Virus record (IMG/VR): IMGVR_UViG_3300040781_000188 | Coordinates: 1-61,481 of that record | Length of the DNA: 61,481 nucleotides | Source: a virus | Direction: 5' to 3' (one strand) | Part shown: one piece after another, positions 5,535 to 54,497 of the stretch | Position numbering within the stretch: the first letter of the stretch is position 1 | How the letters are laid out: each line of letters starts with the position of its first letter | Notes under the pieces: model-generated | Databases searched by the model: none | The model's input: the letters and a program-made list of their open reading frames with translations, nothing else | What the model was told of the DNA's origin: nothing | Position numbers and translations under genes: made by a program

Positions 5535-5876
5535 ATGAACTCACATTTAGGTAACAGACAATATGAACGAGCTACACATCCTGTTCGATTATCTATAAAT
5601 AAACATATATTAGGATCAACTTTAAATATTAGTATTGGTGGAGCATTTGCTATTGTTAATAAAGAAGTACCAGAGATGGATGAACTTGATATTATTTTAG
5701 AATTACCAGATGGAGACTTTGAAGTTAAAGGTACATGTTTAAGGTCTTCTAGTATGGGAGAAGCTTCGTATCATATCGCTTTATTATTTCAAATAGAGAC
5801 TGAAAATGAAGATAATATATTAAGATTAGCTCGATTTATTAATTGCCAGGAGATGCGTTGCCGGGAGATGCGATAA
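5535..5876 (+). CDS. PilZ domain protein, copy 3
   Basis: About 113 residues from the ATG at 5535 (a GTG at 5526 is an alternative). RxxxR is at residues 8-12 (RQYER) and N-x-S-x-x-G at 31-36 (NISIGG), with the barrel strand IILELPDGDFEVKGTCLR. The C-terminus CQEMRCREMR is encoded by a tandemly duplicated ribosome-binding segment (5846-5873) serving the next gene. The stop overlaps that gene's ATG as TAATG. Confidence 0.88.
   Translation: MNSHLGNRQYERATHPVRLSINKHILGSTLNISIGGAFAIVNKEVPEMDELDIILELPDGDFEVKGTCLRSSSMGEASYHIALLFQIETENEDNILRLARFINCQEMRCREMR
5846..5873 (+). repeat. Tandem duplication of a ribosome-binding segment
   Basis: GCCAGGAGATGCG (5846-5858) and GCCGGGAGATGCG (5861-5873) are 13-nt copies with a 15-nt period and one mismatch. 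The second provides the GGGAG just upstream of the ATG at 5876. The duplication extends the end of the PilZ gene in frame. Confidence 0.7.
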
Positions 5877-6112
5877 TGATTTCATTACTCGAGAAAAAAG
5901 TTATTAAAGTAGAAAACACTCCTAATTGGCAAGTACATGATTTCAAGAATCCACCGAATAAGGATATTGCAAAAGATTCTAGAGGGAAACCAATATTTCG
6001 TCGATTCCATCCAAAAGGACGACCAGACCGTTTAATAACCGTCGCGATTAAAAAGAATCCAGGCCCTGCAGGAGGGAAGACGGAAGTCACTTCTGTTTGG
6101 AAGAAAAAATAA
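5876..6112 (+). CDS. Small leader-tagged protein (MISLLE type)
   Basis: A 78-residue basic protein. The ATG at 5876 is chosen over an upstream in-frame ATG at 5843 because GGGAG precedes it and the resulting start, MISLLEKK, matches the shared N-terminal leader seen in about 23 proteins here. The rest is Lys/Pro-rich; its VENTPNWQVHDFKNPP stretch loosely resembles VENTPKDAKGFP in the 9804 protein. No domain recognised. Possibly an internal head protein. Confidence 0.65.
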   Translation: MISLLEKKVIKVENTPNWQVHDFKNPPNKDIAKDSRGKPIFRRFHPKGRPDRLITVAIKKNPGPAGGKTEVTSVWKKK

Positions 6113-6125
6113 ATAGGAGTAATGG

Positions 6126-6443
6126 ATGATTGACGACAGAAGATTTTATTCTAGAGGAATTATTGAACTAGATATTGCTGTTGGTCCTAGAGCCAAAGGT
6201 AAAACTGTTAATATATCTTTAGGTGGTATTCTTTGTAGGCTTGATACATTTATTCAATCTGATGTTTGTATGGATATTATAATTACTAAGAACGGAGATA
6301 CGATTGAAATGAGAGGGTACTGTAATCGTATCGAGAAAATAAAGAAAAGAGATTATTTAGCATCCATCGAATTTAGTAAAGATTGTATTAGTCCATTTAA
6401 TAAGAATAGACTCAAATTAGCTGAATATTTAAGAGGATATTAA
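6126..6443 (+). CDS. PilZ domain protein, copy 4
   Basis: A 105-residue protein with RxxxR at 6-10 (RFYSR) and N-x-S-x-x-G at 29-34 (NISLGG), both parts of the c-di-GMP site. The AGGAG is 7 nt before the ATG at 6126. It lies between two leader-tagged genes. Single PilZ domain, no partner domain. Confidence 0.88.
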   Translation: MIDDRRFYSRGIIELDIAVGPRAKGKTVNISLGGILCRLDTFIQSDVCMDIIITKNGDTIEMRGYCNRIEKIKKRDYLASIEFSKDCISPFNKNRLKLAEYLRGY

Positions 6444-6445
6444 AT

Positions 6446-7159
6446 ATGATATCTGTGACTAGAATATATGAAACTTTAGAATTAATGGAACTCGAAGATT
6501 ATATCGAGAATTTAACTGTTGCTTGTTGTGAAACATATCAAGATGAATTTGTTGACGCTGCGGTAAAATATTTAGAAGAAGATGATCATTCTATTTTAGA
6601 TGTTTATTTTGAAAGTCATTCCGAAGTATTAAACGAGCTTAAAGTTAATATTTCAAAAGAGGATGTGGAAGCTGCTAAAAAACATGTTAAAGAAAAATTA
6701 AAAGAATCTGCTAAACAACCAGTTAAGAAATCTCTTATTAGAAAATTAACTAGTAAAATGTATAAGAATAGAGTTGGGCGTGCTATTGTTAAAGGTATCC
6801 GTAAAGCGGGATATGGTACTAAACTTGGTCGAAAAGTTATGGGTAAATATGCGGATGTAAAACAAGCTATGGCTAAAGGTCATAGTGAAATGGGTAAGAA
6901 ATTTACAAAATCAGCAGGACAGTATGGGGCTATGGCTAAAGGTCTTGAAAGAGATGTTATAGGTAATGCATTATATGGAGATACAGCTAAAAATGCAAGA
7001 GATTCTTTTGTGAAAGCTGCCGGTGCTGCAGGACAACGTGCTAGGAGTTCAATGAAAGCAGCAAATCAAACTAAACGTAATTTGAAGATGACAGGTAAAA
7101 GAGAACCAAAAGTTAAATTTTCTATGCCTAAACAAAGAGCTTTACCTCATCCCGCATAA
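6446..7159 (+). CDS. Leader-tagged acidic/basic protein, internal-head-protein-like
   Basis: A 237-residue protein in two halves. The start MISVTRIYETLE matches the shared leader. Residues to about 85 are acidic and helical, and the remaining ~150 are strongly basic, rich in Lys, Ala, Gly and Arg without hydrophobic core, ending KQRALPHPA. This charge split resembles internal proteins that are packaged with DNA after prohead proteolysis. No enzyme motif. Function inferred from composition and the leader only. Confidence 0.65.
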   Translation: MISVTRIYETLELMELEDYIENLTVACCETYQDEFVDAAVKYLEEDDHSILDVYFESHSEVLNELKVNISKEDVEAAKKHVKEKLKESAKQPVKKSLIRKLTSKMYKNRVGRAIVKGIRKAGYGTKLGRKVMGKYADVKQAMAKGHSEMGKKFTKSAGQYGAMAKGLERDVIGNALYGDTAKNARDSFVKAAGAAGQRARSSMKAANQTKRNLKMTGKREPKVKFSMPKQRALPHPA

Positions 7160-7174
7160 TCCTGGTAGGTGATA

Positions 7175-7564
7175 ATGCCAAAGAAAAGAATATATTATAA
7201 AGGTAAAAAAGTATCTAAAGGTGAAAAGAAAATAATTGATCATTTACTTAAAAGAGAAATTTCTTTTGAACAAGAGAAGACGTTTGATGATTGTAAAACT
7301 AGGAACAATAGAAAACATCTTCGGTTTGATTTCTTTTTGCCGACATTTAAAGTTCTTATTGAATTTGATGGCGAACATCATTATGGTCCTGTTAATAAAC
7401 ATGCTCGTGCTAAATACGTCCATGAACGTACAGTAATAAATGATCAAATAAAAAATAATTATGTAACAACGACAGGATACGGTTTATTACGGATACCGTA
7501 TTGGGAATATGATAAAATAGAAGAGATAATAGACGAGATGATATCAAATCTAGGAAATAAATAA
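7175..7564 (+). CDS. Small PD-(D/E)xK-type endonuclease (DUF559/Vsr-like)
   Basis: About 129 residues from the ATG at 7175, with AGGTG before it. The pattern SKGEKKIIDHLL, RFDFFLP, VLIEFDGEHHY, then GYGLLRIPYWEYD is that of small Vsr/DUF559-like nucleases; the Asp in RFDFF and the Glu in IEFDGE would be the metal ligands. Such free-standing nucleases in phages act in mobility or DNA processing. It overlaps the next gene (TAATG at 7562-7566). Confidence 0.72.
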   Translation: MPKKRIYYKGKKVSKGEKKIIDHLLKREISFEQEKTFDDCKTRNNRKHLRFDFFLPTFKVLIEFDGEHHYGPVNKHARAKYVHERTVINDQIKNNYVTTTGYGLLRIPYWEYDKIEEIIDEMISNLGNK

Positions 7565-8625
7565 TGAACCCATCAAATATGGCAAGAAAAATTTTAATAT
7601 TAGATGATGAACAATCTATTGTTGATATTATATCTAAATATTTAATTAGGGTTGGTTATCAACCAATAGGGTTTATTAATGTTGAAAAAGCGTTAGAAAA
7701 ATTCGAACGAACAGAAGATATTTTTCTAGTGTTAACAGATATAGACATGCCAGATATTGACGGTATAACTGTACTTAAATCAATAAAATCGATAAGAATG
7801 GATGTGCAAGTAATTATTGTTTCTGGTGCAGGATCGTCGAATCAAATTGTTGAAGCTTTAAGATACGGGGCTTGTGATTATTTAATGAAGCCAGTTAATT
7901 TTGAATTACTTAATCATTCTATATCTAAATGCTTTGAACGATTTGATTATATTAAACATCGAGATGAATATGAAAAAAATCTCGAGGAACAAGTTAAAAG
8001 ACAAACAGAAAGTATATATTCCTTATTTAATGAATCAATTAAATCGTTGTCTAAAATAACAGCGTTACGAGATCCTTATACTGCTGGTCATCAAAAACGA
8101 GTAACCGATTTAGCTTTAGCTATTAGTCAGGAAATGAATTTAAGTGAAGATATCTGTCAAAGTATTAAAATAGCCGGTTTACTCCATGATGTTGGTAAGA
8201 TTTGTGTTCCAACAGAAATCCTTGTTAAACCTGCAAGATTGACAAAAAAAGAAATAGGATTAATGCAAGAGCATGTCACTGCTAGTTATAATATTGTAAA
8301 GAATATTCCTTTTCAAGATGTATTAAATCATGATGTTGCCGAAATAATACTACAACATCATGAACGTCTTGATGGATCAGGTTATCCTAGAAATCTTAAA
8401 GAAAATGAAATATATTTAGAAACAAAAATACTTTCTGTTTGTGATGTTATAGAATCTATGTCATTACATCGTCCTTATCGTCCCGCCTTAGGATTAAAAA
8501 AGACATTGGATGAAATAAGGAGAGGTTGTGGAACAGTTTATGATAATGATGTTTGTCAGACTGCTATAGCAATATTGGAACCTTATGGAGATAGTTTAAT
8601 GAACTATTTTAAGGGTGAATCATGA
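7564..8625 (+). CDS. Response regulator with HD-GYP domain (c-di-GMP phosphodiesterase)
   Basis: A 353-residue protein: receiver domain 1-125 with phosphoacceptor Asp59 (LTDIDMPD), Ser87 and Lys109; a helical linker; then an HD-GYP domain about 150-345. Visible HD-GYP motifs are TAGHQKRV (His176), LLHDVGK (His208-Asp209), EHV (His237) and HHERLDGSGYP at 265-275. HD-GYP enzymes hydrolyse c-di-GMP to pGpG or GMP, here probably switched by phosphorylation of the receiver. All key residues appear intact. A cognate kinase could be the 25955-30283 gene. Confidence 0.93.
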   Translation: MNPSNMARKILILDDEQSIVDIISKYLIRVGYQPIGFINVEKALEKFERTEDIFLVLTDIDMPDIDGITVLKSIKSIRMDVQVIIVSGAGSSNQIVEALRYGACDYLMKPVNFELLNHSISKCFERFDYIKHRDEYEKNLEEQVKRQTESIYSLFNESIKSLSKITALRDPYTAGHQKRVTDLALAISQEMNLSEDICQSIKIAGLLHDVGKICVPTEILVKPARLTKKEIGLMQEHVTASYNIVKNIPFQDVLNHDVAEIILQHHERLDGSGYPRNLKENEIYLETKILSVCDVIESMSLHRPYRPALGLKKTLDEIRRGCGTVYDNDVCQTAIAILEPYGDSLMNYFKGES

Positions 8626-8858
8626 TTTCTCTAGTTGAGTATGAAGTGTTGCAATTCACAAAAAGAGCATATACTGATAAATATCCTGCTATATCGTTAC
8701 CACCAAACATTTCAGATAGAGCAGTCAAAGGAATGGCTTCTCATTTATTGAATATAATAAAACTTCGAGAAAAGAATAACAAACCTTCTGAAGTAGATGA
8801 TAGTCAGGATAAATTTGACGGAACAAATTCAAATTATGATGAAAAGACAAGTATTTAA
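8622..8858 (+). CDS. Small leader-tagged protein
   Basis: A 78-residue protein overlapping the HD-GYP stop by 4 nt (ATGA-type). It starts MISLVEYEVLQFTKRAY, a variant of the shared leader with Glu at 6 and 8. The C-terminal third is Asp/Ser/Asn-rich and probably disordered. Not recognised otherwise. Confidence 0.6.
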   Translation: MISLVEYEVLQFTKRAYTDKYPAISLPPNISDRAVKGMASHLLNIIKLREKNNKPSEVDDSQDKFDGTNSNYDEKTSI

Positions 8859-8909: not shown

Positions 8910-9266
8910 ATGAGATCAAAAATTATTTTTGGTTGTTTATTAATCTTTATTTCCTTTATTATTATGGGTGTAGGATTTTCTAAAGGAGATAATGTAACTC
9001 ATTATTCGAACTTCATAACAAAACAAATAAATCAATGTGCGGAACGTAGTCAAAATTTTTGTACTGCAGAAATGCCGAAGATAAAGAGAGAATCTGCAAT
9101 TGATTGTTTAAAGGCTTCTTATTTTTCTTTCCATAGAAAACAATTAATAGACATGATGGTTGAGTATAATATTGGAGTAGAAGAACACCAAATGAGCGTG
9201 TTCTTAAACGGAACGTTCTTTGAAATCCTTAGAACAGCGATTGAAGACTATGATACCAATACATAA
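8910..9266 (+). CDS. Small membrane-anchored or exported protein
   Basis: About 118 residues from the ATG at 8910, with GGAG 7 nt upstream; an earlier GTG at 8886 lacks a site. The N-terminus is MRSK followed by a hydrophobic stretch (FGCLLIFISFIIMGVGF), either a signal peptide or a membrane anchor. Three cysteines follow (QCAERS, NFC, DCLKA). Function unknown; an exported protein affecting the envelope is possible. Confidence 0.55.
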   Translation: MRSKIIFGCLLIFISFIIMGVGFSKGDNVTHYSNFITKQINQCAERSQNFCTAEMPKIKRESAIDCLKASYFSFHRKQLIDMMVEYNIGVEEHQMSVFLNGTFFEILRTAIEDYDTNT

Positions 9267-9804
9267 TCTTTTTGAACGAAAGTTCATAAGTGGTCCAGAT
9301 TATCAATATAATATGGATGCTTGGAATAATAATAAAACTAATATATTATTAGTGTTAGGTTTGAGTGGTAGTGGTAAGACGACAGATGGCATTTTATTAT
9401 CAAAGAAATATAATGTTGGTTATATCTCTTTGGATGAACTGTTTTATAACCCGATACATGATAAATTTAAAGAAAAAACAGGTCGTTATGCGGCGACAAT
9501 TGAAGAGATGTTAGATATAACTAAAAAGATTAATGTTGGTTTTAAAAAGATGTTACCTACTTTGAAAAAACGGTTTGTTATAGAAGGACTATGGCCGTTA
9601 TTTATGGATCCGAAAGAACTAAAAAATTATTCTATAATAATCAAAGGAACATCTAATTTAAAGTCATCATATCAAGTAAAATCAAGGTCTGATCATCTTA
9701 ATTTGAAAAAATCAGTAGAACGATTTTTATGGACCGCTAATTTTAATAGGCACGTTGATACTCGTATTAAAATGTTTATTCGATATTTTGAAGGATTGAA
9801 ATAA
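9250..9804 (+). CDS. Leader-tagged P-loop kinase-like NTPase
   Basis: About 184 residues from the ATG at 9250, chosen because it gives MIPIHNLFERKF, matching the leader MIPISYLFE of two later genes; an upstream ATG at 9220 is possible. The Walker A motif GLSGSGKTT lies about residues 35-45, followed by SLDELFYNP as in small nucleoside or adenylate-type kinases, and RFVIEGLWPLF. The substrate is unknown. If the leader targets proteins to the capsid, this kinase would be virion cargo. Confidence 0.7.
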   Translation: MIPIHNLFERKFISGPDYQYNMDAWNNNKTNILLVLGLSGSGKTTDGILLSKKYNVGYISLDELFYNPIHDKFKEKTGRYAATIEEMLDITKKINVGFKKMLPTLKKRFVIEGLWPLFMDPKELKNYSIIIKGTSNLKSSYQVKSRSDHLNLKKSVERFLWTANFNRHVDTRIKMFIRYFEGLK

Positions 9805-10283
9805 TGATATCTGTATGTAACTATATAACTCCTATATTTGAAGATAAGAAACCTGATCTTAAAGAGGGCGAATACGCTGTAAGAAAGCGTAAACCTAAAA
9901 AGGTTCTAGATTTCAATCCACGAACTAATCGTATGAAGAAATTTAAACGTACTCAATGGTTTGTTACTAAAATCGCTCCTAAAGATCGTACTGTAGAGAA
10001 CACACCTAAAGATGCTAAAGGGTTTCCCATATGCACACATCAAACATGGCTTATGATTAAAGGAGAACGCAGAACTCCCAACAGCTCTGTTGATAGTTTT
10101 GGTAAATCAGAAGCTAATGGTAGATGGTATGGATGGTCACATAGGGCCATTGCTTCTTTTGGAATTGGTGATGTAGTTAAACCTACTACTTCTGGATTTG
10201 AAAGATTGAAAGAACCATTTACTATTAATTCTGAAGAAAAAGCTAGAGAAGTTGCAAAGAGATTTGCGGAATCTGTTAGCTAG
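9804..10283 (+). CDS. Leader-tagged protein of unknown function
   Basis: A 159-residue basic protein starting MISVCNYITPIFEDK, a longer form of the shared leader with Glu at residue 13. The central part holds VENTPKDAKGFPICT and GRWYGWSHRAIASFGIGD. The Trp/His-rich patch looks like a folded domain found in other phage proteins, but I cannot name it. The start overlaps the kinase stop (TAATG). Confidence 0.62.
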   Translation: MISVCNYITPIFEDKKPDLKEGEYAVRKRKPKKVLDFNPRTNRMKKFKRTQWFVTKIAPKDRTVENTPKDAKGFPICTHQTWLMIKGERRTPNSSVDSFGKSEANGRWYGWSHRAIASFGIGDVVKPTTSGFERLKEPFTINSEEKAREVAKRFAESVS

Positions 10284-10292: not shown

Positions 10293-10487
10293 ATGTTATC
10301 AATTTTTCAATTATTCGAAATACAACCTAATATGCAAAAAGTGTCAAAAGCGTATTTGGATAAAATCAAGACATTACCTAAAAGTATTAAAAGAGATAAA
10401 CTTTCAAAAGGTTGGATGTTAGCTTTACAAAGACAAAATAAAAGGCCTTCTAGAAAACTTTTGAATTTAGATAATAGTATGTATTAA
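10293..10487 (+). CDS. Small leader-tagged basic protein
   Basis: A 64-residue protein with GGAG before the ATG. It starts MLSIFQLFEIQPN, a textbook copy of the shared leader (LFE at 7-9), followed by a Lys/Arg-rich helix. No domain recognised. Size and charge fit a packaged internal protein. Confidence 0.6.
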   Translation: MLSIFQLFEIQPNMQKVSKAYLDKIKTLPKSIKRDKLSKGWMLALQRQNKRPSRKLLNLDNSMY

Positions 10488-11053: not shown

Positions 11054-11272
11054 ATGATTGCAATGTATGAAATGTGGCCATTTAGCAAAAAACAAGATGT
11101 TCCACATCCTGATGAAGGAAAAGAAGCATTAGCTAATAAGGCTGGTGGAACAGATGTGAGCGCATTTAATATGGCAAATCGGCTTAGAAAATTACGTGCT
11201 GCAAAAGAAGATATGTTATCTCAAGCTGGTAATATTGGAAGGAAAGCGGTTACGGTAGCTCAAGGAGATTAA
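11054..11272 (+). CDS. Small leader-tagged protein (weak match)
   Basis: A 72-residue protein with AAGGAG ribosome site. It starts MIAMYEMWPFSKKQD, a weak form of the shared leader with Glu at 6. The remainder is Ala/Lys/Gly-rich and helical. Unknown; grouped with the putative internal proteins by start, size and charge. Confidence 0.55.
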   Translation: MIAMYEMWPFSKKQDVPHPDEGKEALANKAGGTDVSAFNMANRLRKLRAAKEDMLSQAGNIGRKAVTVAQGD

Positions 11273-11274: not shown

Positions 11275-11520
11275 ATGCTATCTATACTTGAAATGACGGT
11301 AAACTTACATCCAGATGTTAAGAAGTATGCAAAAAATACAACACAACTAAATAAAGGTATATCTAAAGATTTAGCAGATATGGTTGGTGGTGGATCTAAA
11401 GTAGCTCATGATTATTACAAAGGGTTACAGAGGAACCTAAGAAGAAAAGTAGCAAAAATGCAAATTGATAAATTTAAAATGTCAAGAAAAAATCTAGGCG
11501 GACCACAATTAGCTGTTTAG
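11275..11520 (+). CDS. Small leader-tagged basic protein
   Basis: An 81-residue protein starting MLSILEMTVN (leader with Glu at 6), 2 bp after the previous stop. Its body is basic, with Lys/Arg/Gln-rich helices (LQRNLRRKVAKMQIDKFK). No known domain. Likely the same class as the neighbours. Confidence 0.58.
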   Translation: MLSILEMTVNLHPDVKKYAKNTTQLNKGISKDLADMVGGGSKVAHDYYKGLQRNLRRKVAKMQIDKFKMSRKNLGGPQLAV

Positions 11521-12964: not shown

Positions 12965-13189
12965 ATGTTACCAGTATCACATTTATTAACGGAAGAAATA
13001 CCAGCTAGCGCAATTCGTAATGCTTTTAAACAGGCTGCAGTATGGGGTCTAGGTGGAGCAGTTGCTGCCAAAGTAGGTCAGGAAAAAAAGAAGTCTTTAA
13101 CTAAAGAAGAGAAAAAAGCAAGGTGGAAAGATTTGTTAACACAAACTGGTATTGGAGCAGCAGCCGGCGCAGCTGGATCATTGATTTGA
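12965..13189 (+). CDS. Small leader-tagged Gly-zipper protein
   Basis: A 74-residue protein starting MLPVSHLLTEEIPAS, a shared-leader variant with Glu at 10. Two Gly/Ala-rich segments (VWGLGGAVAAKVG and GIGAAAGAAGSLI) flank a Lys-rich middle; these could insert in membranes or pack as glycine zippers. Unknown function. Confidence 0.58.
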   Translation: MLPVSHLLTEEIPASAIRNAFKQAAVWGLGGAVAAKVGQEKKKSLTKEEKKARWKDLLTQTGIGAAAGAAGSLI

Positions 13190-13230: not shown

Positions 13231-13401
13231 ATGAATGCTTTTGAATTATCGGGTATTTCTGCTGGACTTGGTGCTTTAGGTATGGTTAAAAAATTGCGGA
13301 GAGTTGATGAAGGTAAAGAAATCGCTGCATTAAAGAACACGAAAAAAGAACAAAAGGGCGAAACTCCGAAACCTAAATCGGAAGTTGTTAAGAGTTGTTA
13401 A
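13231..13401 (+). CDS. Very small GLGA-KKLRR protein, copy 1
   Basis: A 56-residue protein with AAGGAG 6 nt before the ATG at 13231. It contains ISAGLGALGMVKKLRR, very similar to GISAGLGAMATTKRIRR in the next gene and to the C-termini of the 37286 and 37730 proteins. The tail is Lys/Glu/Pro-rich and disordered. It looks like a stand-alone copy of a C-terminal module. Confidence 0.6.
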   Translation: MNAFELSGISAGLGALGMVKKLRRVDEGKEIAALKNTKKEQKGETPKPKSEVVKSC

Positions 13402-13432
13402 TTTTTTTCCTTTAATTTATGAGGAGAGTGTT

Positions 13433-13630
13433 ATGCAGTTAACTGAAATGGAATACGTAGGGATATCTGCTGGCCTTGGAGCAATGGCGACGACAAAAAG
13501 AATTCGTCGATTGCAAGAAGGAGAAGTTAGAGTTCCGAAAAATCTTATTGATAAAGATCAAGAGATTAAAGTTGGCGAGGTTAACAAGTATTTTGACTCT
13601 ATGAAAACAGAAGTAGCAGACGAGGGCTAA
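13433..13630 (+). CDS. Very small GLGA-KKLRR protein, copy 2
   Basis: About 65 residues from the ATG at 13433, with GAGGAG before it; an upstream TTG-type extension from 13385 is unlikely. MQLTEMEYVGISAGLGAM is followed by TTKRIRRLQEGE. A tandem paralogue of the 13231 gene. Unknown function. Confidence 0.6.
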   Translation: MQLTEMEYVGISAGLGAMATTKRIRRLQEGEVRVPKNLIDKDQEIKVGEVNKYFDSMKTEVADEG

Positions 13631-13631: not shown

Positions 13632-14348
13632 ATGTCGAAAGCTTACAGAGATCTTATTATTAGAGAATCGATCGATGATAGCTTCTTTTATCTCGGGGAA
13701 CCAATGACAGAAATTATTAAAATTCCAGATGTCGATAATCAGGGTGAAGAATTCATTATTGAAATTGCAGAAGATGTTGGTGATGTAGTTCTTCCTTTTA
13801 TCGAATCTAATTTGGAAAAATTTGGCCTAGAATATAACGATGTTATTGGTGAAGATGATTTGTTTGATATTATTTCTGATGTGGTTCTTTCTGAACTTAA
13901 AGCTCCAAGCAAAAAAGCTATTAATAGATATGGTACCCGTGGAGCTACTAAACTCATGAAAGCATCTGCTAAAGCAGGAACTTTAGCTAGATCTGCGCGT
14001 ACTATGGGTACTTTATCTGGTAAGATGAGTTCTTTTGGTGATAGACGAATTGCAGCTGCAAAAGAGCTTTCTAGTAGTGGTAAAGATTGGGCAGGTGCTG
14101 GTGGTGCGGTTGGATATGGTAAAGCTGCTTGGAGAGGAACAAAAGCCGCTGCTCATGCTGGTGCTGGACTAGCTGCTAAGATTGGTGCAGGAATGGCCAC
14201 AGCAAGACAAGGATATTTGCGGGGCGCAGCTAGAAGAACAATGGCTTCAGGATTTGGGGCTGCTACACAACAGAAACGATATCAAGATTTAAGAGATAAA
14301 GAAGCTGCACAAAGAGCAGAACGACTCCGACAAGCCGGTATGGGTTAA
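13632..14348 (+). CDS. Acidic/basic internal-head-protein-like protein
   Basis: A 238-residue protein with a sharp charge split. Residues 1 to about 88 are acidic (Asp/Glu/Ile-rich), ending VVLSELKAPSKK. The remaining 150 are basic and Ala/Gly/Arg/Lys-rich with little hydrophobic core. The junction contains a possible LxE protease site (LSE). This architecture, shared with the genes at 6446, 14359 and 15022, fits a precursor whose acidic part is removed in the prohead and whose basic part stays with DNA. Confidence 0.62.
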   Translation: MSKAYRDLIIRESIDDSFFYLGEPMTEIIKIPDVDNQGEEFIIEIAEDVGDVVLPFIESNLEKFGLEYNDVIGEDDLFDIISDVVLSELKAPSKKAINRYGTRGATKLMKASAKAGTLARSARTMGTLSGKMSSFGDRRIAAAKELSSSGKDWAGAGGAVGYGKAAWRGTKAAAHAGAGLAAKIGAGMATARQGYLRGAARRTMASGFGAATQQKRYQDLRDKEAAQRAERLRQAGMG

Positions 14349-14358
14349 GGAGATACTC

Positions 14359-14994
14359 GTGTTAACTTTTATTCTTAATGAATCATTTCGTGATTATGTA
14401 TTTTATGAAAATGAAGAAAATATACTACTATTAAATGAATATTTAGAATTATTAGAAAATAATCAAGTTACTCCAGATTTAGAACATAAAATATTCGAAA
14501 TCTTAGATCAACACATCTATTATAATTTCGAATTTTATGAAGCAGGTAATACGACTCTTGGTGCTAAATTTCGTAAAGCATTTAAAGAAGAAACAGCTAA
14601 AGCAGATTATAATAAATGGTCAAATAATGATCCTAGACAGCCTGGAATATCTGGTTGGGTTAAGGATAAATTAGGTATTGAAAGTTTTAGACAAGAAGGT
14701 AAAAATATTATTAATAAAGCTAAAACTTCATCAACAAATGCGGTTGCTGATACATCTTATGCTAAGAAGATAAAATCTGCCGCAGAAGCCGGTCTTGCTA
14801 ATATTAAAAAAAGAAGAAAAGATGGGAAAACTGTCCAAGCAGTAGCATCTGCAAGATTAGCTGTTTCTGATCCATCATCTAAGGAAGCAAAAACTTTAAG
14901 GAAACAAAGAGTCAAAGGTTATAATTTGTCTAAATCTGGCAAAATTAGAGAGAAGATATACAAGACGACAAGAAATGTATTAACTAAGAAGTAA
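14359..14994 (+). CDS. Acidic/basic internal-head-protein-like protein
   Basis: A 211-residue protein starting at GTG 14359, with AAGGAG 6 nt upstream. It begins MLTFILNESF, a weak shared leader. The N-terminal 60 residues are acidic and Leu-rich (EENILLLNEYLELLE) and end NFEFYEAGNTT; after that the protein is basic and Lys/Ala-rich. No fold recognised. Same class as 13632 and 15022. Confidence 0.6.
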   Translation: MLTFILNESFRDYVFYENEENILLLNEYLELLENNQVTPDLEHKIFEILDQHIYYNFEFYEAGNTTLGAKFRKAFKEETAKADYNKWSNNDPRQPGISGWVKDKLGIESFRQEGKNIINKAKTSSTNAVADTSYAKKIKSAAEAGLANIKKRRKDGKTVQAVASARLAVSDPSSKEAKTLRKQRVKGYNLSKSGKIREKIYKTTRNVLTKK

Positions 14995-15021
14995 ACTATT
15001 AATCTTTTGGAGGATTTAAAA

Positions 15022-15573
15022 ATGTTTAAGGATGAGACTGAATTGATGGAGTTTATTTGTGAAGGTGATGATGTTATTGTTAATATGGTCGTTACTGAAG
15101 CTATAAAGGATGCTTTCCTTTATGAAGACGAGAATTTCGTTAAGGCTATGGATATGTATGTTGAGCAGTTGGAGACTGACAAGATTGATGAAAAATTAGA
15201 AGAACACCTTTCGACAGTCATATCTGCGTATGTTGATAATAACGCTGATATTTTTGAAAGTCTTTTCGAAGCTAAAATGGGACCGACGCCTACTGGGCCA
15301 CGACCTATTCCGAAACCCAAGATGACTTGGACGGGTGTAAAGCAAAGAGTGAAAATGAAGAAAGCTCAATTTACTCGTGATGCCAAACGTGGTAAGAACA
15401 AGCTCCTTGCTACATTAAGAGCTCGTAAGGCTAAAGTTGGAGATATGGTTAAGTCGGCATATGGTAAAGTTGCAAGTAGCATCAAATCTACTCCTGATGC
15501 GATTAAGGCTGGTCTTGCTTGGGCTAAAGGCATGATTCCTAAGCGTAAAGCTGCTGCTGCAGCCGCTGCGTAA
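15022..15573 (+). CDS. Acidic/basic internal-head-protein-like protein
   Basis: About 183 residues from the ATG at 15022, with GGAGG 8 nt upstream. The acidic N-terminal ~85 residues end IFESLFEAKMGPTPTG, where LFE followed by Ala is a good match to the T4-type prohead-protease site. The rest is Pro/Lys/Arg/Ala-rich, ending KRKAAAAAAA. Probably processed and packaged; inferred from charge pattern and site. Confidence 0.63.
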   Translation: MFKDETELMEFICEGDDVIVNMVVTEAIKDAFLYEDENFVKAMDMYVEQLETDKIDEKLEEHLSTVISAYVDNNADIFESLFEAKMGPTPTGPRPIPKPKMTWTGVKQRVKMKKAQFTRDAKRGKNKLLATLRARKAKVGDMVKSAYGKVASSIKSTPDAIKAGLAWAKGMIPKRKAAAAAAA

Positions 15574-15619: not shown

Positions 15620-15832
15620 ATGAGTTCTTTTGACGTAAATAAGATTATCAACGAATCGCTGAAGTCGACACTTGATAGTGAACCGCCTGAAGTTATCGTT
15701 GAAAATGAAGAAGTTAACGATGATAAGGGAACAACTGTCAAAGAAGGTTTTATTGTCACTGAAGCTGAATATAAAGAAGCTAAAGGTGGTATCGCTGCAT
15801 TCTTGGAAGGAGTATCAGACGAAAAAAAATAG
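15620..15832 (+). CDS. Acidic prodomain-like protein, 0-frame product before a -1 frameshift
   Basis: About 70 residues from the ATG at 15620, chosen because GGAGG is 6 nt upstream (the earlier ATG at 15614 is too close). It is acidic throughout and ends GIAAFLEGVSDEKK at tandem stops TAG TAG. The end lies on a run of eight A residues with a slippery heptamer. The -1 frame continues without a stop into a basic Gly/Ala-rich segment (15829-16224), recreating the acidic/basic layout of the preceding genes. Both short and fused products are predicted. Confidence 0.65.
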   Translation: MSSFDVNKIINESLKSTLDSEPPEVIVENEEVNDDKGTTVKEGFIVTEAEYKEAKGGIAAFLEGVSDEKK

Positions 15833-16604: not shown

Positions 16605-16787
16605 ATGATTAGAAAAGAATTGCTTGAAGAAGCCATTCGTGCTGGATTTCGCCGGGCTATAAAGAACAGGCGTAATAAGTGGAAGCGTGACAAAATACTA
16701 AAGAAACTTGGTAGGAAAAAAAGGCGAACGCGTACCTTCCCAGGCTTTTCAAATATAGCAGCTGATGCTCTCGATGGTATGATGTAA
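16605..16787 (+). CDS. Small leader-tagged basic protein
   Basis: About 60 residues from the ATG at 16605, with GGAGG 9 nt upstream; an earlier ATG at 16584 is less likely. MIRKELLEEAIRAGFRR carries LLE followed by Glu-Ala, and the rest is Arg/Lys-rich. Probably DNA-associated by charge. Unknown function. Confidence 0.55.
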   Translation: MIRKELLEEAIRAGFRRAIKNRRNKWKRDKILKKLGRKKRRTRTFPGFSNIAADALDGMM

Positions 16788-16802: not shown

Positions 16803-17015
16803 ATGCTTTCTTTGTTTGAATATTCAGTCTTGCGAGGGAACCCCAAGCCATTAATAGGATCTCTCGCAAGGCGACCAGAGTATATGATGAAGCCAACGAA
16901 GTCTAATATACAGAGAGATAGTGACGAAAAAGTAAAAATTATGTCTTCAATAAATAGATCCAAATTACCAAAGGCGAAGAAATTTTCGACTTGGGGATCT
17001 CGTAAGATGAAATAG
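16803..17015 (+). CDS. Small leader-tagged basic protein
   Basis: A 70-residue basic protein starting MLSLFEYSVLRG (shared leader with Glu at 6), then Pro/Lys/Arg-rich and probably disordered. It is the last rightward gene before the convergent terminator at 17033-17074. Confidence 0.57.
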   Translation: MLSLFEYSVLRGNPKPLIGSLARRPEYMMKPTKSNIQRDSDEKVKIMSSINRSKLPKAKKFSTWGSRKMK

Positions 17016-21766: not shown

Positions 21767-21958
21767 ATGTTATCTATTGTTAGATATTTAAATGAAACTT
21801 GGAGCGCAACTCCGATTCAACCGCCTGTTGGATCAGTATCTAGTGGATATCAAAATATCATTGATCGAAATCTAAAAACAGGAAATGGGCAATTTTTATT
21901 ACTAAGGAAAAACAAAGATGATAAGTCTATTAGAATATCCTATGCCCCAAAGAAGTAA
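21767..21958 (+). CDS. Small leader-tagged protein
   Basis: A 63-residue protein starting MLSIVRYLNETWSA (shared leader with Glu at 10). The rest is polar. It overlaps the next tagged gene by 41 nt in another frame. Unknown. Confidence 0.55.
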   Translation: MLSIVRYLNETWSATPIQPPVGSVSSGYQNIIDRNLKTGNGQFLLLRKNKDDKSIRISYAPKK

Positions 21959-28900: not shown

Positions 28901-30283
28901 ATTGTTGAAAAATTAGTAAATGGCGAGCAAATACCCCCTTATGAAAAAAGATATATCCATAAAGATGGGAGTGTTATAGATATTGAACTTGCTCCTTATC
29001 CTATTTCTGATGATTCTGGTAATGTTGTTGAATTATGGGGTATTGCAAAGAATTTAACGCCAGTTAGAAATGTTCAATTAGAAATAATAGAAAAAGAAAA
29101 ACAATTACGTCGGGCTTCTAAAATGGAAGCTGTTGGTACTTTAGCTGGTGGATTAGCTCATGACTTTAATAATATTATTCAAATAGTAAGTGGTAATGTT
29201 CAATTAATGCGTATGGATTTGGATTCTGACGGAAAAACTTCTGATTGGAGTAAAATGTTAAATGATATGTTAGAAGCTTCTGAGAGAGGAGCTGCTATTG
29301 CAAAACGTCTTTTAACTTTTAGTCGTCAAGTCGAAAGCCATCTTGTACCAATTGATATCAATGATGAAATTATTATTGCTCATAAATTATTAGACAGAAC
29401 TGCAACGTGGCCGGTTTTAGTTAATATTAAATTAGATCTTGATGAAGATATTTGTTTAATTTTAGCGGACTCTACACAGATTAATCAGATCGTTACAAAT
29501 CTATGTATTAATGCTAAAGATGCAATGCCTTCTGGTGGATCAATAACAATTAAAACTAGAGTTGCAGAATTAGATGAATTATATTGTCGTTCTCAACCTG
29601 AAGCTGTCCCGGGAAGATACGTTTGTATGGTAGTTGCTGATGATGGTATAGGTATGAAAGCTTCTATTCTTGAAAGAATATTTGAACCATTTTTCACAAC
29701 TAAAAGTACAGGAAAAGGAACAGGATTAGGTTTAGCTGTTGTTTATGGTATTGTTAAAAATCATAATGGTTTTATAACTGTATATAGCGAAGAAAATATC
29801 GGAACGGAGTTCAAAGTGTATGTGCCATGTACAGATCAAACTCTTAGAGAAAATAATAGTTCTTCTGTTTGTGATTTATCTCAAGGTAATAAAGAATTAA
29901 TACTTATTGTAGATGATGAGTCTAGTATACGGTTTATTCTTAAAGATATATTAAGAAGGTATAATTTTAAAGTTCTCGAAGCTAATAATGGAACTACTTG
30001 TTTAGATTTATATAGTAAATATATGGATAAAATAGAACTTGTTATTTTAGATCTAGTTATGCCTGGAATAAGCGGAACAGAAACATTAAAAGAAATTTTA
30101 AAGATTAATCCTGATGCTAAAGTTATTATTTCTAGTGGGTATTCGTCTAATGGTCCAGTTAAAGATTCAATTGAAAATGGAGCATATTCTTTTATAAATA
30201 AACCATATACATTAAATAATCTTATTAGTGTCATTAAGAGAGTTCTTAGTGGCAAAAGAGATGGAGTAGATGAGATATGTTAA
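25955..30283 (+). CDS. Giant hybrid sensor histidine kinase
   Basis: A 1442-residue protein starting at GTG 25955. In order: signal peptide (1-23), periplasmic SBP_bac_3-like binding domain (about 25-245), membrane segments (about 256-275, 286-303, 324-339), a PAS domain (350-470), a Cys-rich GAF-like domain (472-668), three further PAS domains (to about 1045), HisKA with His1069 (GGLAHDFNN), HATPase ([31 protein letters not shown]) and a C-terminal receiver with Asp1366 (VILDLVMPG). All catalytic motifs look intact. Very unusual for a phage; probably host-derived. Confidence 0.93.
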
Positions 30284-30519
30284 GCATTCACCATTTATTG
30301 GAAAGTAACATACTTCAGATTGGGCCGAATGCAGAAAGCGATGTTGAAGAACTTTCTCCAGAAGGCGATAAATTAGATAAACAAATTATTAAAAATGCGT
30401 TTACTGGTGGGGATCGTACTCATGGAGAAGTCGATCCAAAAGCATCGCCTCCGAATCCTGATGCAGCATATAAATATGTAAATACACCACTTGAAAGAAT
30501 TACTAAGACACGAATATAA
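30277..30519 (+). CDS. Small leader-tagged protein
   Basis: An 80-residue protein starting [13 protein letters not shown], a full shared leader with LLE at 7-9; it overlaps the kinase stop by 7 nt. The rest is polar and acidic/Pro-rich, probably disordered. Unknown. Confidence 0.57.
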   Translation: MLSIHHLLESNILQIGPNAESDVEELSPEGDKLDKQIIKNAFTGGDRTHGEVDPKASPPNPDAAYKYVNTPLERITKTRI

Positions 30520-30649: not shown

Positions 30650-31111
30650 ATGATAAGTTTATTTGACCAAGGATTCTTAAACAGAAACTGGGGCAAATTA
30701 GCTCTTGGTGGTGGAGCTCTTGCTGTAGGCTCGATGGTTGGTGATGACCCAGAGAATTTTAAAAGTGTTACAAAAAAAGCAATGACCTCTACTAAAAACA
30801 CGATACAAGACACCCCTAAATCGATTCCTAGAGTAATAAAAAATAACTCTAATTATAATGATTTTGGTAAAGCAACAACCGCTTGGAAAGAAAAAGGTGG
30901 TAAAGCTGTTATGCAAGTGAGGCAGAGACTTTCCAATATAGATCCGGATGCCGCCGTTCAAAAGGGAGCTAGAAAAATAGGACAAATAGCAAGAACAACT
31001 AAAGACTATACAGATCGAACTGCAGGTAGTTTTAGAAGTGGTTATTCTGCTAATATTCCTAAATTGCCTAGCGAAAAATACGATGCTCGAGGAAGGATTA
31101 CTGGCTTATAA
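30650..31111 (+). CDS. Small basic protein with leader-like start
   Basis: About 153 residues from the ATG at 30650, with GGAGAG upstream; an earlier start at 30569 would run through the hairpin. It starts MISLFDQGFLN, a leader-like sequence with Asp in place of Glu. A Gly/Ala segment (LALGGGALAVGSMVG) follows, then a basic Lys/Arg/Thr-rich body. Putative internal virion protein. Confidence 0.58.
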   Translation: MISLFDQGFLNRNWGKLALGGGALAVGSMVGDDPENFKSVTKKAMTSTKNTIQDTPKSIPRVIKNNSNYNDFGKATTAWKEKGGKAVMQVRQRLSNIDPDAAVQKGARKIGQIARTTKDYTDRTAGSFRSGYSANIPKLPSEKYDARGRITGL

Positions 31112-33459: not shown

Positions 33460-33988
33460 TGAATTAAAAAATGCAGATGCTTCGACATCAGATACTTATG
33501 ATTATATTGGTGATGATTTTTCTAAACAAAAGAGTGAATTAGAAAAACAAATTATTGTCATGACGACAAGACAATCTGAAATTCAAAATCATATTCTTGC
33601 AATAGAACAAAATATTTCGTTTCTTAATAGCTATATAGCTAAGAATAAAGAGGATCAAGAGAAACAAAGAGTTGGGCGAGGAGCAATATCAAAGAATATT
33701 GAATTACTTGCAAAATTATATCAAGTGTACAGAGAATTCGAAGATACAAAGGTTCGTTATTATAAGAATATTTCTGATGACACATATAGATTTCATCATT
33801 TAATCTCTGTTGATATTAGGAGAATAGATGAAAAATTTTCAGCTGTTGAAGGTGGAGATTTCTTTGGTGTTATAAAAGAAATGATGAATTTAATTCAACA
33901 TGTTCAAAATGAACATGGTGGAAAGATTCCCTTGACAGAGGATCTTCAAGGAGATTTAGTAAAAACAAATCCGGAGTATGACTTATGA
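33449..33988 (+). CDS. Coiled-coil protein
   Basis: A 179-residue protein with GGGAGAAGGA upstream of the ATG. Residues about 28-75 form a predicted coiled coil (heptads of Leu/Ile with Lys/Gln/Glu), followed by further helices. Overlaps both neighbours. Possibly a structural or chaperone component; unknown. Confidence 0.57.
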   Translation: MTNDELKNADASTSDTYDYIGDDFSKQKSELEKQIIVMTTRQSEIQNHILAIEQNISFLNSYIAKNKEDQEKQRVGRGAISKNIELLAKLYQVYREFEDTKVRYYKNISDDTYRFHHLISVDIRRIDEKFSAVEGGDFFGVIKEMMNLIQHVQNEHGGKIPLTEDLQGDLVKTNPEYDL

Positions 33989-34230
33989 TTTCTATTCGAT
34001 ATTTATTTGAAACGTCAAAATATAAGCCTTGGATGGTAGGCACACCTGTACAAATAGGTGGTCCTGGGTATCCAACTGGGGATTTAAGACTAACTAAGGC
34101 GCCACCGGGTCAAATGTTGGCTTTACAAAAAAATGCAGAGCAGTTAACTAATGTTCAAAATGCTGAAATGAAAAAAGAATTAAGAAGGAAAAGGAATCTT
34201 ACTCCAGCAGAACTTGCTAGCGGAGCATAG
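33985..34230 (+). CDS. Small leader-tagged basic protein
   Basis: An 81-residue protein starting MISIRYLFETSKY, a full shared leader with LFE at 7-9 followed by Thr-Ser. The rest is Pro/Gly-rich and then basic (KKELRRKRNLT). It overlaps the previous stop by 4 nt. Likely internal virion protein by class. Confidence 0.6.
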   Translation: MISIRYLFETSKYKPWMVGTPVQIGGPGYPTGDLRLTKAPPGQMLALQKNAEQLTNVQNAEMKKELRRKRNLTPAELASGA

Positions 34231-34239: not shown

Positions 34240-34473
34240 ATGTTATCTCTGTCTAAATATTACAACAAAATAGAAGAACGGGATATGGTTGTGATAAGAA
34301 GAATTGAACGAAAAGAATCTTATCCTCCAAAACCCGATGATGGTGAAGATGAAGTAGAAACTGTTTCAACTCCAGAAGAGGATGTTTCTGTTGTAAAAGG
34401 TAAAGAAATAAATAAAACAACTGGTGAAGAGATAGAAAAAGAACCTGTCGTAATAAGGCGAATGAAGAAATAA
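34240..34473 (+). CDS. Small leader-tagged charged protein
   Basis: A 77-residue protein starting MLSLSKYYNKIEERD, the long leader form with Glu at 12. The body is highly charged. VVIRRIERKE near the N-terminus and VVIRRMKK at the C-terminus repeat each other. Probably disordered; unknown. Confidence 0.55.
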   Translation: MLSLSKYYNKIEERDMVVIRRIERKESYPPKPDDGEDEVETVSTPEEDVSVVKGKEINKTTGEEIEKEPVVIRRMKK

Positions 34474-37702: not shown

Positions 37703-37729
37703 TTTATAACAAATTATTATGGGGGAATT

Positions 37730-48631: not shown

Positions 48632-48817
48632 ATGTTATCTATATCTAGATTATTTGAAGAAATATCATCATTTCCGCTTTCAAGGAAACTACAGAAAACC
48701 GCATCTAAATTATATATGCGTGGTACCCCAGAATATAACACTATTGCTCAAAGAATTGCGGAAAAGGCTAAAACAGTTTCTCCAAAATATCAAGCAATGA
48801 AAAGGAAGCTTTCGTAA
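48632..48817 (+). CDS. Small leader-tagged basic protein
   Basis: A 61-residue protein with GAGGG upstream. It starts MLSISRLFEEISS, a full shared leader (LFE at 7-9), followed by a Lys/Arg-rich helical body. It overlaps the next gene as TAATG. Confidence 0.6.
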   Translation: MLSISRLFEEISSFPLSRKLQKTASKLYMRGTPEYNTIAQRIAEKAKTVSPKYQAMKRKLS

Positions 48818-49544: not shown

Positions 49545-50075
49545 ATGTTATCATTACTAAAACTATTTGAACTACAAGATTTACCTTGGAGATACAAACG
49601 TGGTGGCAGAGTACCTTTTGGTGCAGATAAAGTTAACGCTGCTATGTTTGCTTGGTTTGTTTTCCATGATGGAGAAAAACCTCCTTTTATACCAGGTAGA
49701 GTAGTTAATCATCCAGAGAAGAACTGGAAAGGTATGGGCGTAGATAAAGTTATACCTACTAAAGCTCTAGATGATTTATATGCTATTAAACAAATTCAAG
49801 GTAGAGCAAGTTGTCAAGGTACTCTTACGGATGCAAATGGTGAATTAGAAGTTCCTACTTACTATATATTTAGACCTCTTAATCAAGATAAACGATATGT
49901 TGAAACTATAGTAAACAAACTAAATAAATATTCAGATGTTAAATCTAATTACGATATAGGATTAGGTAATGAATTTCGTATAGGTGTTGTTGGGAATATG
50001 TCTTATGAAACTAATCCTAAAAGTTTTACTAAATGGTGGAATGAGTTACCAATTAAGATTAAGAAATCATTATAA
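49545..50075 (+). CDS. Leader-tagged protein with unknown folded domain
   Basis: A 176-residue protein starting MLSLLKLFELQDL (shared leader, LFE at 7-9). Unlike most tagged proteins the body looks globular: KVNAAMFAWFVFHDGEKPP, FIPGRVVNHPE, TYYIFRPLNQDKRY. I do not recognise the family. If the leader is a capsid-targeting signal, this would be packaged cargo. Confidence 0.58.
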   Translation: MLSLLKLFELQDLPWRYKRGGRVPFGADKVNAAMFAWFVFHDGEKPPFIPGRVVNHPEKNWKGMGVDKVIPTKALDDLYAIKQIQGRASCQGTLTDANGELEVPTYYIFRPLNQDKRYVETIVNKLNKYSDVKSNYDIGLGNEFRIGVVGNMSYETNPKSFTKWWNELPIKIKKSL

Positions 50076-50290: not shown

Positions 50291-50824
50291 ATGATATCTA
50301 TATCTCAACTTTTAGAACAAGAAAATCAAGTCCAAATCTATTGTGATATGGATGGAGTGCTTACGGATTTTAACGAGTCTGCTAAAAAGATTGGATGGAA
50401 AGGTCCACTTCCAGCGGTTACAAAAGAGGATAAATCAGCACTCTGGAAAATGGTAGTAGGAAATGCCGAAAAATTTTGGGGCGATATGCCTTGGAAAGAA
50501 GACGGTAAAATACTTTGGGAATTCATTAAGCCATATGATCCTATACTTTTGACATCTGTCGCTAATAGTCTAAGTTCAAAGTTGGGCTCAGGCGGAAAAC
50601 GTGGAAAAGAACGTTGGGTTGGGAGAGAGTTAGGTCGGGATTATGTCAAAAACAATCTGATCGTTGTAGCTTCGCATGGAAAAACTAAATATGCAAAGAA
50701 GGGTTCTATTTTAATCGACGATTTTGAAAAAAATATAATTCCTTGGGAATCTGCTGGTGGGATTGGTATTTTACATACGTCAGCTGATAGAACTATAGAT
50801 GAGTTAAAGAAACTATTGCAATAA
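50291..50824 (+). CDS. Leader-tagged HAD-type 5'(3')-nucleotidase-like phosphatase
   Basis: A 177-residue protein. After the leader MISISQLLEQENQ comes a HAD core: IYCDMDGVLTDFNE (nucleophile and acid/base Asp pair, about residues 19-21), ILLTSVANS (Thr/Ser of motif II), HGKTKYA (Lys) and ILIDDFEKN (acidic motif IV). It is most like 5'(3')-deoxyribonucleotidases. The leader precedes the domain without disturbing it, so it may be removable. Confidence 0.78.
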   Translation: MISISQLLEQENQVQIYCDMDGVLTDFNESAKKIGWKGPLPAVTKEDKSALWKMVVGNAEKFWGDMPWKEDGKILWEFIKPYDPILLTSVANSLSSKLGSGGKRGKERWVGRELGRDYVKNNLIVVASHGKTKYAKKGSILIDDFEKNIIPWESAGGIGILHTSADRTIDELKKLLQ

Positions 50825-51654: not shown

Positions 51655-51714
51655 AACCCTTTCTCCTTACAAGAGAAAGTCATTTAATTGCCCAGCGTTG
51701 GGGCTTAATTCTAA

Positions 51715-52243: not shown

Positions 52244-52273
52244 TTTAATCCTTTCATCTTTTTTTGATAGAGA

Positions 52274-52663: not shown

Positions 52664-52702
52664 TTTTGTCTCCATAATAAAAGTTAATGTTAGAAGAATC
52701 AT

Positions 52703-52737
52703 TTCTTTATATAATTGTTAAATATTAAAGGATAAAA
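52703..52737 (+). promoter_or_regulatory. Candidate promoter, motif copy C
   Basis: TTTCTTTATAT to AATATTAAAGGATAAA immediately precedes the ATG at 52740. Its last part (AAAGGATAAA) doubles as ribosome site. It is related to copies at 20116 and 51715. Copies A and C both sit at minus-to-plus strand switches, as expected of a promoter for the rightward block. Confidence 0.55.
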
Positions 52738-52739
52738 GT

Positions 52740-53243
52740 ATGGCAAAATTTCGTCATTTTGAGGAAAGTAGAATCCAACTTGGTGTTGGGGAAGTACACA
52801 TTCAAGAAGTAAGTGATGGTGTACATCTTACTATTAGCGAAGAAATAGAACACAGTATTCGATTAGGTATTCCAAATGAACATGGAACTACTTATAATTA
52901 TTGGCGCGATATTGTTAATATATTAAAAGATGATGAAGACTCAATTAAATTAGCTTCTGCTATAGTTGAATTAGAAGACTCTGATCTAAATCAAGAAGAA
53001 TTGCCTAAACCATTAAGACCAGAATTTGTTAATTTCTCTGATAATAATATTGATTGGATTGGAATAAAATTATTGACTTCGAATGGAGATCCTATTCTTG
53101 TCTGTTGGGAAAAAGGATCAGGCATTCCTATACCAACTATTTCATTTAATTTAGATTGGATAAAGAAAGCGACTAAAATTGGACAGTCTGTATTTTATCA
53201 AGAACTCGCCAAAGTTTGTTCGAAAGTGTTAGACGAAGTATGA
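52740..53243 (+). CDS. Unknown acidic protein
   Basis: A 167-residue acidic protein, beta-rich at the N-terminus (VGEVHIQEVSDGVHLTISEE) and with an alpha/beta C-terminal half. It is the first gene of the rightward block after the leftward cassette. It overlaps the next gene by 4 nt (ATGA). Not recognised. Confidence 0.57.
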   Translation: MAKFRHFEESRIQLGVGEVHIQEVSDGVHLTISEEIEHSIRLGIPNEHGTTYNYWRDIVNILKDDEDSIKLASAIVELEDSDLNQEELPKPLRPEFVNFSDNNIDWIGIKLLTSNGDPILVCWEKGSGIPIPTISFNLDWIKKATKIGQSVFYQELAKVCSKVLDEV

Positions 53244-53407
53244 AAACTAAAATTATAAATCAATGTGATCTAAAACATTTAGAGCAATTGATTACTTGTC
53301 CATATTATGAATGGAGATTATCTCCATTTAAATGTAATTGGAAATCATTATCTGATGAATGCTTGAATAAAAAAGCACAAGAATATTGGCTTAATAAAAG
53401 GGACTGA
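53240..53407 (+). CDS. Small Cys-containing protein
   Basis: About 55 residues from the ATG at 53240, which overlaps the previous stop as ATGA; an earlier start at 53216 is less likely. Four cysteines (NQCDLK, ITCPYY, KCNWKS, DECLNK) suggest metal binding. Unknown function. Confidence 0.5.
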   Translation: MKTKIINQCDLKHLEQLITCPYYEWRLSPFKCNWKSLSDECLNKKAQEYWLNKRD

Positions 53408-53409
53408 TT

Positions 53410-54072
53410 ATGATACCTATTTCATATTTATTTGAAGTAAGTAGATTAAAAAAAGAAATCAGATTAGGGAAACTGTCTGATGAAGGTATAATGAAAGCTC
53501 GAATGGCAGGACAAATCAAGCCTTTTCATAAATGGAGAAAAGGTATCGATAAAGGGACTAATGAACTTATTCGAAAATCAGGAGCAAAGAAATTAGTTTC
53601 TTCTGATTCATTTGGTGTTCATAAAGACAGAATTTATTCAAATGTACCACAGATGATGACAAGAGATGGAGAGAGACTTGTTGTTCTTCCAAAAACGTCC
53701 TCATCATTTTATAAAGACAAAAATCTTAGTCCTCGTGATGCTACTATTATAAATAGACATGAAGCGGACGAATCTCGGTATGGTAAAGAATATAAAAATA
53801 AATTTGGAGTTAATTTAGCAGGGAGATTTTCAAAACGGGAAGGGACAGGAGAGAAACATGTTTCTGCAAGAGTTACAAAGAGGGAATCAGAAAATCTCAA
53901 TACTGGAAAAGCATATGGACTAGGGTCTTTCCTCAGGTCTCATCGTGAAAAAACTGGAGAATCTAATTTAGTAAAGAAATCAGATAAAGAACTCAAAAAA
54001 ATTGAGAGTAGAAGAATTAAAGATTTTTTGAAGAAAAGTAATCAAATCTCTCCTGAACTGAATTTATATTAA
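53410..54072 (+). CDS. Leader-tagged basic protein
   Basis: A 220-residue, strongly basic protein starting MIPISYLFEVSRL (full leader). A central segment RDATIINRHEADESRYGKEY is the only part that looks folded; the rest is Lys/Arg/Ser-rich. The leader DNA is nearly identical to that of the next gene (26 of 27 nt), which points to copying of the leader as a module. Confidence 0.6.
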   Translation: MIPISYLFEVSRLKKEIRLGKLSDEGIMKARMAGQIKPFHKWRKGIDKGTNELIRKSGAKKLVSSDSFGVHKDRIYSNVPQMMTRDGERLVVLPKTSSSFYKDKNLSPRDATIINRHEADESRYGKEYKNKFGVNLAGRFSKREGTGEKHVSARVTKRESENLNTGKAYGLGSFLRSHREKTGESNLVKKSDKELKKIESRRIKDFLKKSNQISPELNLY

Positions 54073-54083
54073 AGGATTGTAAA

Positions 54084-54497
54084 ATGATACCTATTTCATA
54101 TTTATTCGAACAACCACAAGAATTACCTCCAGAAGAACAGGGTAATCTTGCTGATCGTATTTATGTTAGAGCGTTAGAAAGAGTACCTACTCCCGAACAA
54201 GATGAAGAAGCAGCAATTAGTGATGAAGCTGCTGCAAAAATAGAACAAGAAAAACAGGCAGCGAAAGTTGCTGCAGCTACTGCAGAAATGCGGAATAGAG
54301 ATCCAGAATTAAAACAATTAAAAGCCGCAGAAGCTATTCATAATAAACAAGCTGCTGAAGATGTTAAATCACTAGAACAGGGCGCAGTTCCTCCTAATGT
54401 AGAGCAAGATAAGGCCGAACAAGCCGCTGCTATGCAAGGCCCGCCCGAGGGTAATTCCCAAGGGCAAGTCCAAGAGAATTTATTTCAATATATTTAA
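54084..54497 (+). CDS. Leader-tagged Ala/Gln/Glu-rich protein
   Basis: A 137-residue protein starting MIPISYLFEQPQE, the same leader as the previous gene. The body is low-complexity, Ala/Gln/Glu-rich and helical (AAKIEQEKQAAKVAAATAEM), unlike the basic neighbours. Unknown; perhaps a scaffold-like or internal protein. Confidence 0.6.
   Translation: MIPISYLFEQPQELPPEEQGNLADRIYVRALERVPTPEQDEEAAISDEAAAKIEQEKQAAKVAAATAEMRNRDPELKQLKAAEAIHNKQAAEDVKSLEQGAVPPNVEQDKAEQAAAMQGPPEGNSQGQVQENLFQYI

Follow-up and report, generated by a model that had tools for sequence, protein, structure and literature searches.

The window analysed here is the 61,481-bp IMG/VR record IMGVR_UViG_3300040781_000188 (positions 1 to 61,481; G000). 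Judging by its genes, it derives from a jumbo-type phage that is uncultured and unclassified and has a contractile tail; a tail tube, a baseplate hub, a UvsX-like protein, an endolysin and a terminase were recognisable in it. No useful cultured relative of this phage emerged from DNA searches or from most protein searches. An earlier note had claimed that about 23 otherwise unrelated proteins of the window start with the same short N-terminal leader, and had compared it with the capsid-targeting sequence (CTS) of phage T4 internal proteins. Our analysis showed that the leader is real but that the convincing genes in the window number about 19–21.

Genes that carry the leader

Each of the 23 listed starts is present and gives the described translation, and most of them lie behind a good ribosome-binding site. 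The leader has the consensus M-[I/L]-[S/P]-[I/V/L]-x-x-[L/I]-[F/L]-E, or variants of it with 6–13 residues. The listed window genes all lie on the + strand, and their leaders are given together with the counterparts in G001, a 109-kb relative that is syntenic with the window and has about 20 leader-bearing genes.

The first leader, MISLLE (5876..5893), is on a 78-aa basic protein, and the syntenic G001 gene starts with MLPVSNLFE. MISVTRIYE (6446..6472) precedes a 237-aa core-like protein, whose G001 homologues begin with MITISNLFV and MIPISELFI, both without Glu at residue 9. MISLVE (8622..8639) has a G001 homologue (91425) with the same cargo and another N-terminal module. MIPIHNLFE (9250..9276) is on a P-loop kinase-like protein, and the syntenic G001 gene (90450) has MIPIQCLFE on an apparently non-homologous cargo. 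MISVCNYITPIFE (9804..9842) is on a Tad6-like protein (Thoeris inhibitor family; Pfam PF25188, 2e-17). Its G001 orthologue (89533) has MITISWLFE followed by DKKPDLK, so that the boundary is identical and the leader length is different.

MLPVSHLLTE (12965..12994) corresponds to MIPVAHLFE in the G001 orthologue, and MLSLFE (16803..16820) to MISILE on a G001 gene of similar size in the equivalent place. MLSIVRYLNE (21767..21796; G001 orthologue MISLVSYFRE) belongs to a gene whose 3′ end is overlapped by the next leader, MISLLE (21918..21935), and the two genes are one fused open reading frame (ORF) in G001. The orthologue of the leader gene at 30277..30303 has MLSILGTLYE, that of MISIRYLFE (33985..34011) has MIAISHLFE, and that of MLSLSKYYNKIEE (34240..34278) has MIPLSNILKE. 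MLSLLKLFE (49545..49571) has a G001 homologue with MISISYLFE, and homology between these two proteins starts only at residue 29. MISISQLLE (50291..50317) is on a HAD/5′-nucleotidase-like protein, and the same cargo follows MIPLQYLIDE in G001. Further leaders are MLSIFQLFE (10293..10319), MLSILE (11275..11292), MLSISRLFE (48632..48658) and MIPISYLFE, which occurs at both 53410..53436 and 54084..54110, the latter with the G001 orthologue MISILYILE.

The earlier note had flagged four of its matches as weak. VLTFILNE (14359..14382; G001 orthologue MLEFLLKQS, no Glu) and MIRKELLE (16605..16628) had no support from relatives and were rejected; the former is probably a core-type protein. MIAMYE (11054..11071; syntenic G001 gene MIPVSYLFND) and MISLFD (30650..30667; with Asp instead of Glu, and MIRLTE in the G001 orthologue) are marginal, as is the leader at 21918.

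An ending [I/L/V/M/F]-x-E at residues 6–13 was found in 22 of the 23 listed genes versus 13 of the 58 other window genes, a comparison that is partly circular because the earlier note had selected its genes by Glu. In a set of 79 window proteins with a ribosome-binding site, residues 2–10 were similar in 23 non-homologous pairs; six internal windows yielded 0–1 such pairs and none of 20 shuffles more than 2, and similar N-termini exceeded the controls in G001 as well. The start M[IL][SPTA][ILVMF] was present in 21/79 window genes versus 5/699 genes of related phages without the leader. None of 100 shuffles equalled the six strictest matches to the leader DNA in the window.

Since the final Glu had formed part of the earlier choice, it was tested apart. 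When leaders were selected by hydrophobic positions only and pooled from four phages, Glu stood at residue 9 in 45 of 55. Among 46 pooled nine-residue leaders, a set whose selection required Glu9 and a hydrophobic residue 7, L7 occurred in 42 and F8 in 41. These leaders read M-[I/L]-[S/P]-[I/V]-x-x-L-F-E, and conservation is absent from residue 10 on.

No pair of tagged window proteins showed homology beyond the leader. Pairwise identity of leader codons was 0.56, 0.81 and 0.54 at positions 1, 2 and 3, the third position being the most variable; the exception is the leader DNA of 53410 and 54084, which is nearly identical (26/27 bases). The differing codons and the unrelated sequences after the leader agree with what the earlier note had described.

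Related phages, the prohead protease and the capsid protein

Relatives were located with the terminase large subunit (55236..57411, +) as the anchor. The window terminase as the sole query returned none, while an alignment of two sequences succeeded. A leader-only DNA scan of 2.9 million viral contigs returned 21 stretches, and more than one match was found only in G001 and G010. The latter is a new 286-kb phage with about 38 leader genes, and 30 of its 32 strictest ones lie within the late structural cluster. G013 (88 kb) had a single scan match, yet it proved rich in leaders on inspection. Three relatives (G001, G010 and G013) therefore carry the leader, on about 20–40 genes each, and in them it is conserved on non-homologous cargo. 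The leader was also gained or lost around a constant cargo, as in G013 36804, which is tagged, and its untagged G010 orthologue 66680.

Two other scan candidates, G011 and G012, were rejected as leader phages; each had one chance-like match with no leader family nearby, and G011 had a weak protease-profile match (3.9e-12). Contig G018 combined one leader match with a protease-profile match (5.5e-14). Contigs L153 and L165 seemingly have a further variant leader, M[IL]SxxxLFE, and no protease match was found in these two records, which are fragments.

A gp21-like prohead protease, which the earlier note had proposed to look for, is encoded in all three of the larger leader-bearing relatives. 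In G001 the gene order is portal, protease and major capsid protein, and the protease matched phrog_207 (head maturation protease, 5.6e-17) in a PHROGs search. Homologues were found in G002–G005, G007–G009, G010 and G013, with matches of 4e-77 and 7e-77 in the two scan-found phages, G010 and G013. Single-family searches for Peptidase S78 and S77 gave no match in the window or G001. With Pfam PF03420 (Peptidase S77), the G001 protein scored 27.2 bits against a cut-off of 27, and relatives reached 2e-10; Peptidase_S80 weakly matched all seven proteases too. A profile of the seven sequences hit T4 gp21 (5jbl, 3.3e-7) in the PDB, and its His and Ser columns align with ELNHP and GVSSRG of T4. The predicted fold (mean pLDDT 62.8, with a well-modelled core) had T4 gp21 as its sole significant Foldseek matches (E 7e-10).

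The capsid proteins of five relatives have [L/I]xE at the start of their conserved region (LSE, LTE, LEE, LQE and IEE), which is probably the cut site. The leader ends in the same [L/I]xE motif as this putative major-capsid cleavage site. The sole match of the capsid protein to a cultured phage was Bacillus phage BpSp, at 21% identity.

More distant relatives that bear the protease have genome-wide leaders of their own on unrelated proteins: MDINQLVLE in G004, MILEINKxxLLEE in G007, MLSILTLLE in G002 and perhaps MLQxYKLLIE in G003. Most of these terminate in hydrophobic-x-Glu. The window itself also has a second N-terminal module, GISAGLGAxxxxKxLRRxxE ending in [L/V]xE, on two small genes (13231..13630, +). 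In G001 this module is present in 84670, 85171 and 91425 as G[IL][ST]xGLGAxxxxKxLRRxxE with the end [L/V/I]xE, and in 91425, the orthologue of gene 8622, it takes the place of the leader. Stretches like it were also seen at the C-terminus of window 37286 and 37730. The N-termini MSYQTFVE, MSYQTLLE and MSSFDVNKIINE (window 37286–38503 and 15620–15832) resemble T4-style or relative-style leaders.

Cargo, proposed mechanism and alternatives

In each of the four leader phages, the mature parts of the tagged proteins are more basic than other proteins (p 3e-6 to 0.014). A Tad6 domain stands behind the leader both in 9804 and in G004. Its Pfam match spans the C-terminal part, a single short stretch of Phage NCTB matched the Tad6-like protein, and literature searches on Tad6 found no report. 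Other domains behind the leader are PCMT (methyltransferase, 1.8e-47), LigD_N phosphoesterase in two cases (6.5e-20 and 2.1e-19), DUF5662 (5.2e-24), DUF5661, HD and SUKH. DUF2196 (2e-25) was found in G004 behind the leader of that phage, and DnaJ and 5′-nucleotidase matches were weak. Orthologue comparisons indicate a modular arrangement, in which the leader is kept or swapped around a constant cargo and cargo is swapped under the leader. The window region 13632..15573 (+) appears from its sequence to encode core-like proteins with an acidic N-terminal part, an [L/F]xE site and a basic Gly/Ala/Lys-rich part.

We consider it highly probable that the leader is a T4-style capsid-targeting propeptide, as the earlier note had suggested. 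The protease in relatives, the matching capsid site, the conservation of the leader and the basic cargo all support this. Through hydrophobic positions 2, 4, 7 and 8, a tagged protein would bind to the core scaffold of the head under assembly. The gp21-type serine protease of the phage would then cut after Glu in [L/I]-x-E, at residue 9 or at residues 6–13 in the variants, a site of the same kind as the one in the major capsid protein. The mature cargo, which is basic, would remain inside the head with the DNA and then enter the next host, and cargo genes would be gained and lost under a fixed tag. Core binding, cleavage, packaging, injection and the anti-defence or metabolic roles of the cargo are inferred.

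Several points weigh against this reading. Where Glu is expected, about ten leaders show Asp, Asn, Lys, Gly or another residue. The window stops before the portal-protease-capsid region, which synteny with G001 places beyond its right end, so the protease was seen in relatives only. Only three leader copies were seen in G003, and no leader family was detectable in G008 despite its protease homologue. Nor does the leader resemble that of T4 in more than hydrophobic spacing and the Glu.

The leader might instead serve assembly, as a tag on scaffold or core proteins that head maturation consumes; it would be cleaved, with most of the cargo never delivered. The 6446 protein and its G001 homologues do resemble core proteins with long acidic pro-regions, and the T4 core proteins gp67, gp68 and gp22 are degraded by gp21 (PMC5694885). 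However, a scaffold role is not obvious for the folded enzymes and the Tad6-like inhibitor family among the cargo, and the cargo turns over between relatives, which makes this explanation improbable. The missing Glu in some leaders would suit an uncleaved docking tag for another structure or compartment, such as the tail, the baseplate or a phage nucleus. But Glu is the most constant residue, conservation ends right behind it, and the protease co-occurs with the leader; a docking tag is thus still less probable, though no systematic search for phage-nucleus markers was made. An origin of the tagged genes by old duplication of a single gene, with divergence everywhere save the N-terminus, finds a hint in the near-identical leader DNA of 53410 and 54084, but is very hard to reconcile with non-homologous mature parts in the window and cargo of different folds and distinct known domains. 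A translation signal in the mRNA would explain the location at the extreme gene start, but its probability is negligible given the variable third codon positions, the interchange of I, L and V, a Glu that stays while the length varies from 6 to 13, and the hydrophobic-x-Glu end shared by the unrelated sequences of distant relatives.

Taking the capsid-targeting propeptide as the best explanation, we find it fairly likely that each jumbo-phage lineage has its own short tag, probably matched to its scaffold, which loads 20–40 exchangeable proteins including anti-defence ones into the head. In phages distant from T4, T4-style cargo packaging appears as a modular system whose tags differ between lineages. 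For most genes of jumbo phages the function is not known. Should the tag be a mark of head-packaged proteins, a function class and a timing could be assigned to dozens of such genes per phage; the first ten residues would suffice, and delivery with the DNA would precede phage gene expression. New anti-defence proteins could then be selected by their tag, and if tags are specific to lineages, injected proteins could be read from sequence, metagenomes included.

Apart from the leader genes, the window has several other features. A group I intron (55766–56011; RF00028, 111.8 bits) lies in the terminase gene, which is a single ORF in G001. The window has a split UvsX-like gene (34495–35948), and G010 or G013 have split genes for capsid, portal, DnaB, terminase or UvsX; no intron was found by Rfam at the other split-gene sites searched. 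Signalling genes unusual in phages (25955–30283, 7564–8625, 5190–5522, 6126–6443 and 54512–55270) include a large hybrid histidine kinase, an HD-GYP-like response regulator, PilZ proteins and a second kinase-like protein. A radical SAM protein is encoded at 164–1081.

Comparison with known systems

In T4, residues 1–10 of IPIII are enough for packaging (PMC9026906). The leader of the window therefore cannot be called reduced, as the earlier note had it, since the T4 targeting sequence is itself of this size. Residues 4 and 7 of IPIII matter for targeting and residues 8 and 10 for processing. With Asp at residue 10, processing is blocked while targeting is still allowed (PMC9026906). The internal proteins of T-even phages have been described as diverse defence proteins united only by the targeting sequence (PMC3012670).

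Like IPI, IPII, IPIII and Alt of T4, the proteins described here are unrelated and basic and have an N-terminal leader of about 10 residues. The two systems also share hydrophobic positions, the [I/L]xE end, a gp21-type protease (here in the relatives) and a putative capsid protein cut site of the same kind. The T4 N-termini read MKTYQEFIAE in IPII and IPIII and MELITELFDE in Alt. The leader is not homologous to MKTYQEFIAE and shares with it only the hydrophobic spacing and the final Glu, so it would best be understood as working like a CTS without being a homologue of the T4 leader. The shared design makes packaging, injection and a cut after Glu the most plausible inference. Unlike T4, which has a handful of internal proteins, these phages have about 20–40 tagged proteins each. 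They belong to an unclassified jumbo-phage lineage, and their cargo includes a methyltransferase, phosphoesterases, HD and SUKH domains and a Tad6-like protein.

The ejection proteins of phiKZ and SPN3US offer a second comparison, as these jumbo phages too have propeptides at the N-terminus that are cut after Glu, for some of which a targeting role has been proposed (PMC5694885). However, those propeptides are mostly longer than 100 residues and end in SxE or AxE, whereas the leaders here have 6–13 residues and [L/I]xE. No description of such a tag in the phages studied here was found in the literature searches. The principle is known from T4; the scale and the lineage-specific tags are what makes the present case of interest.

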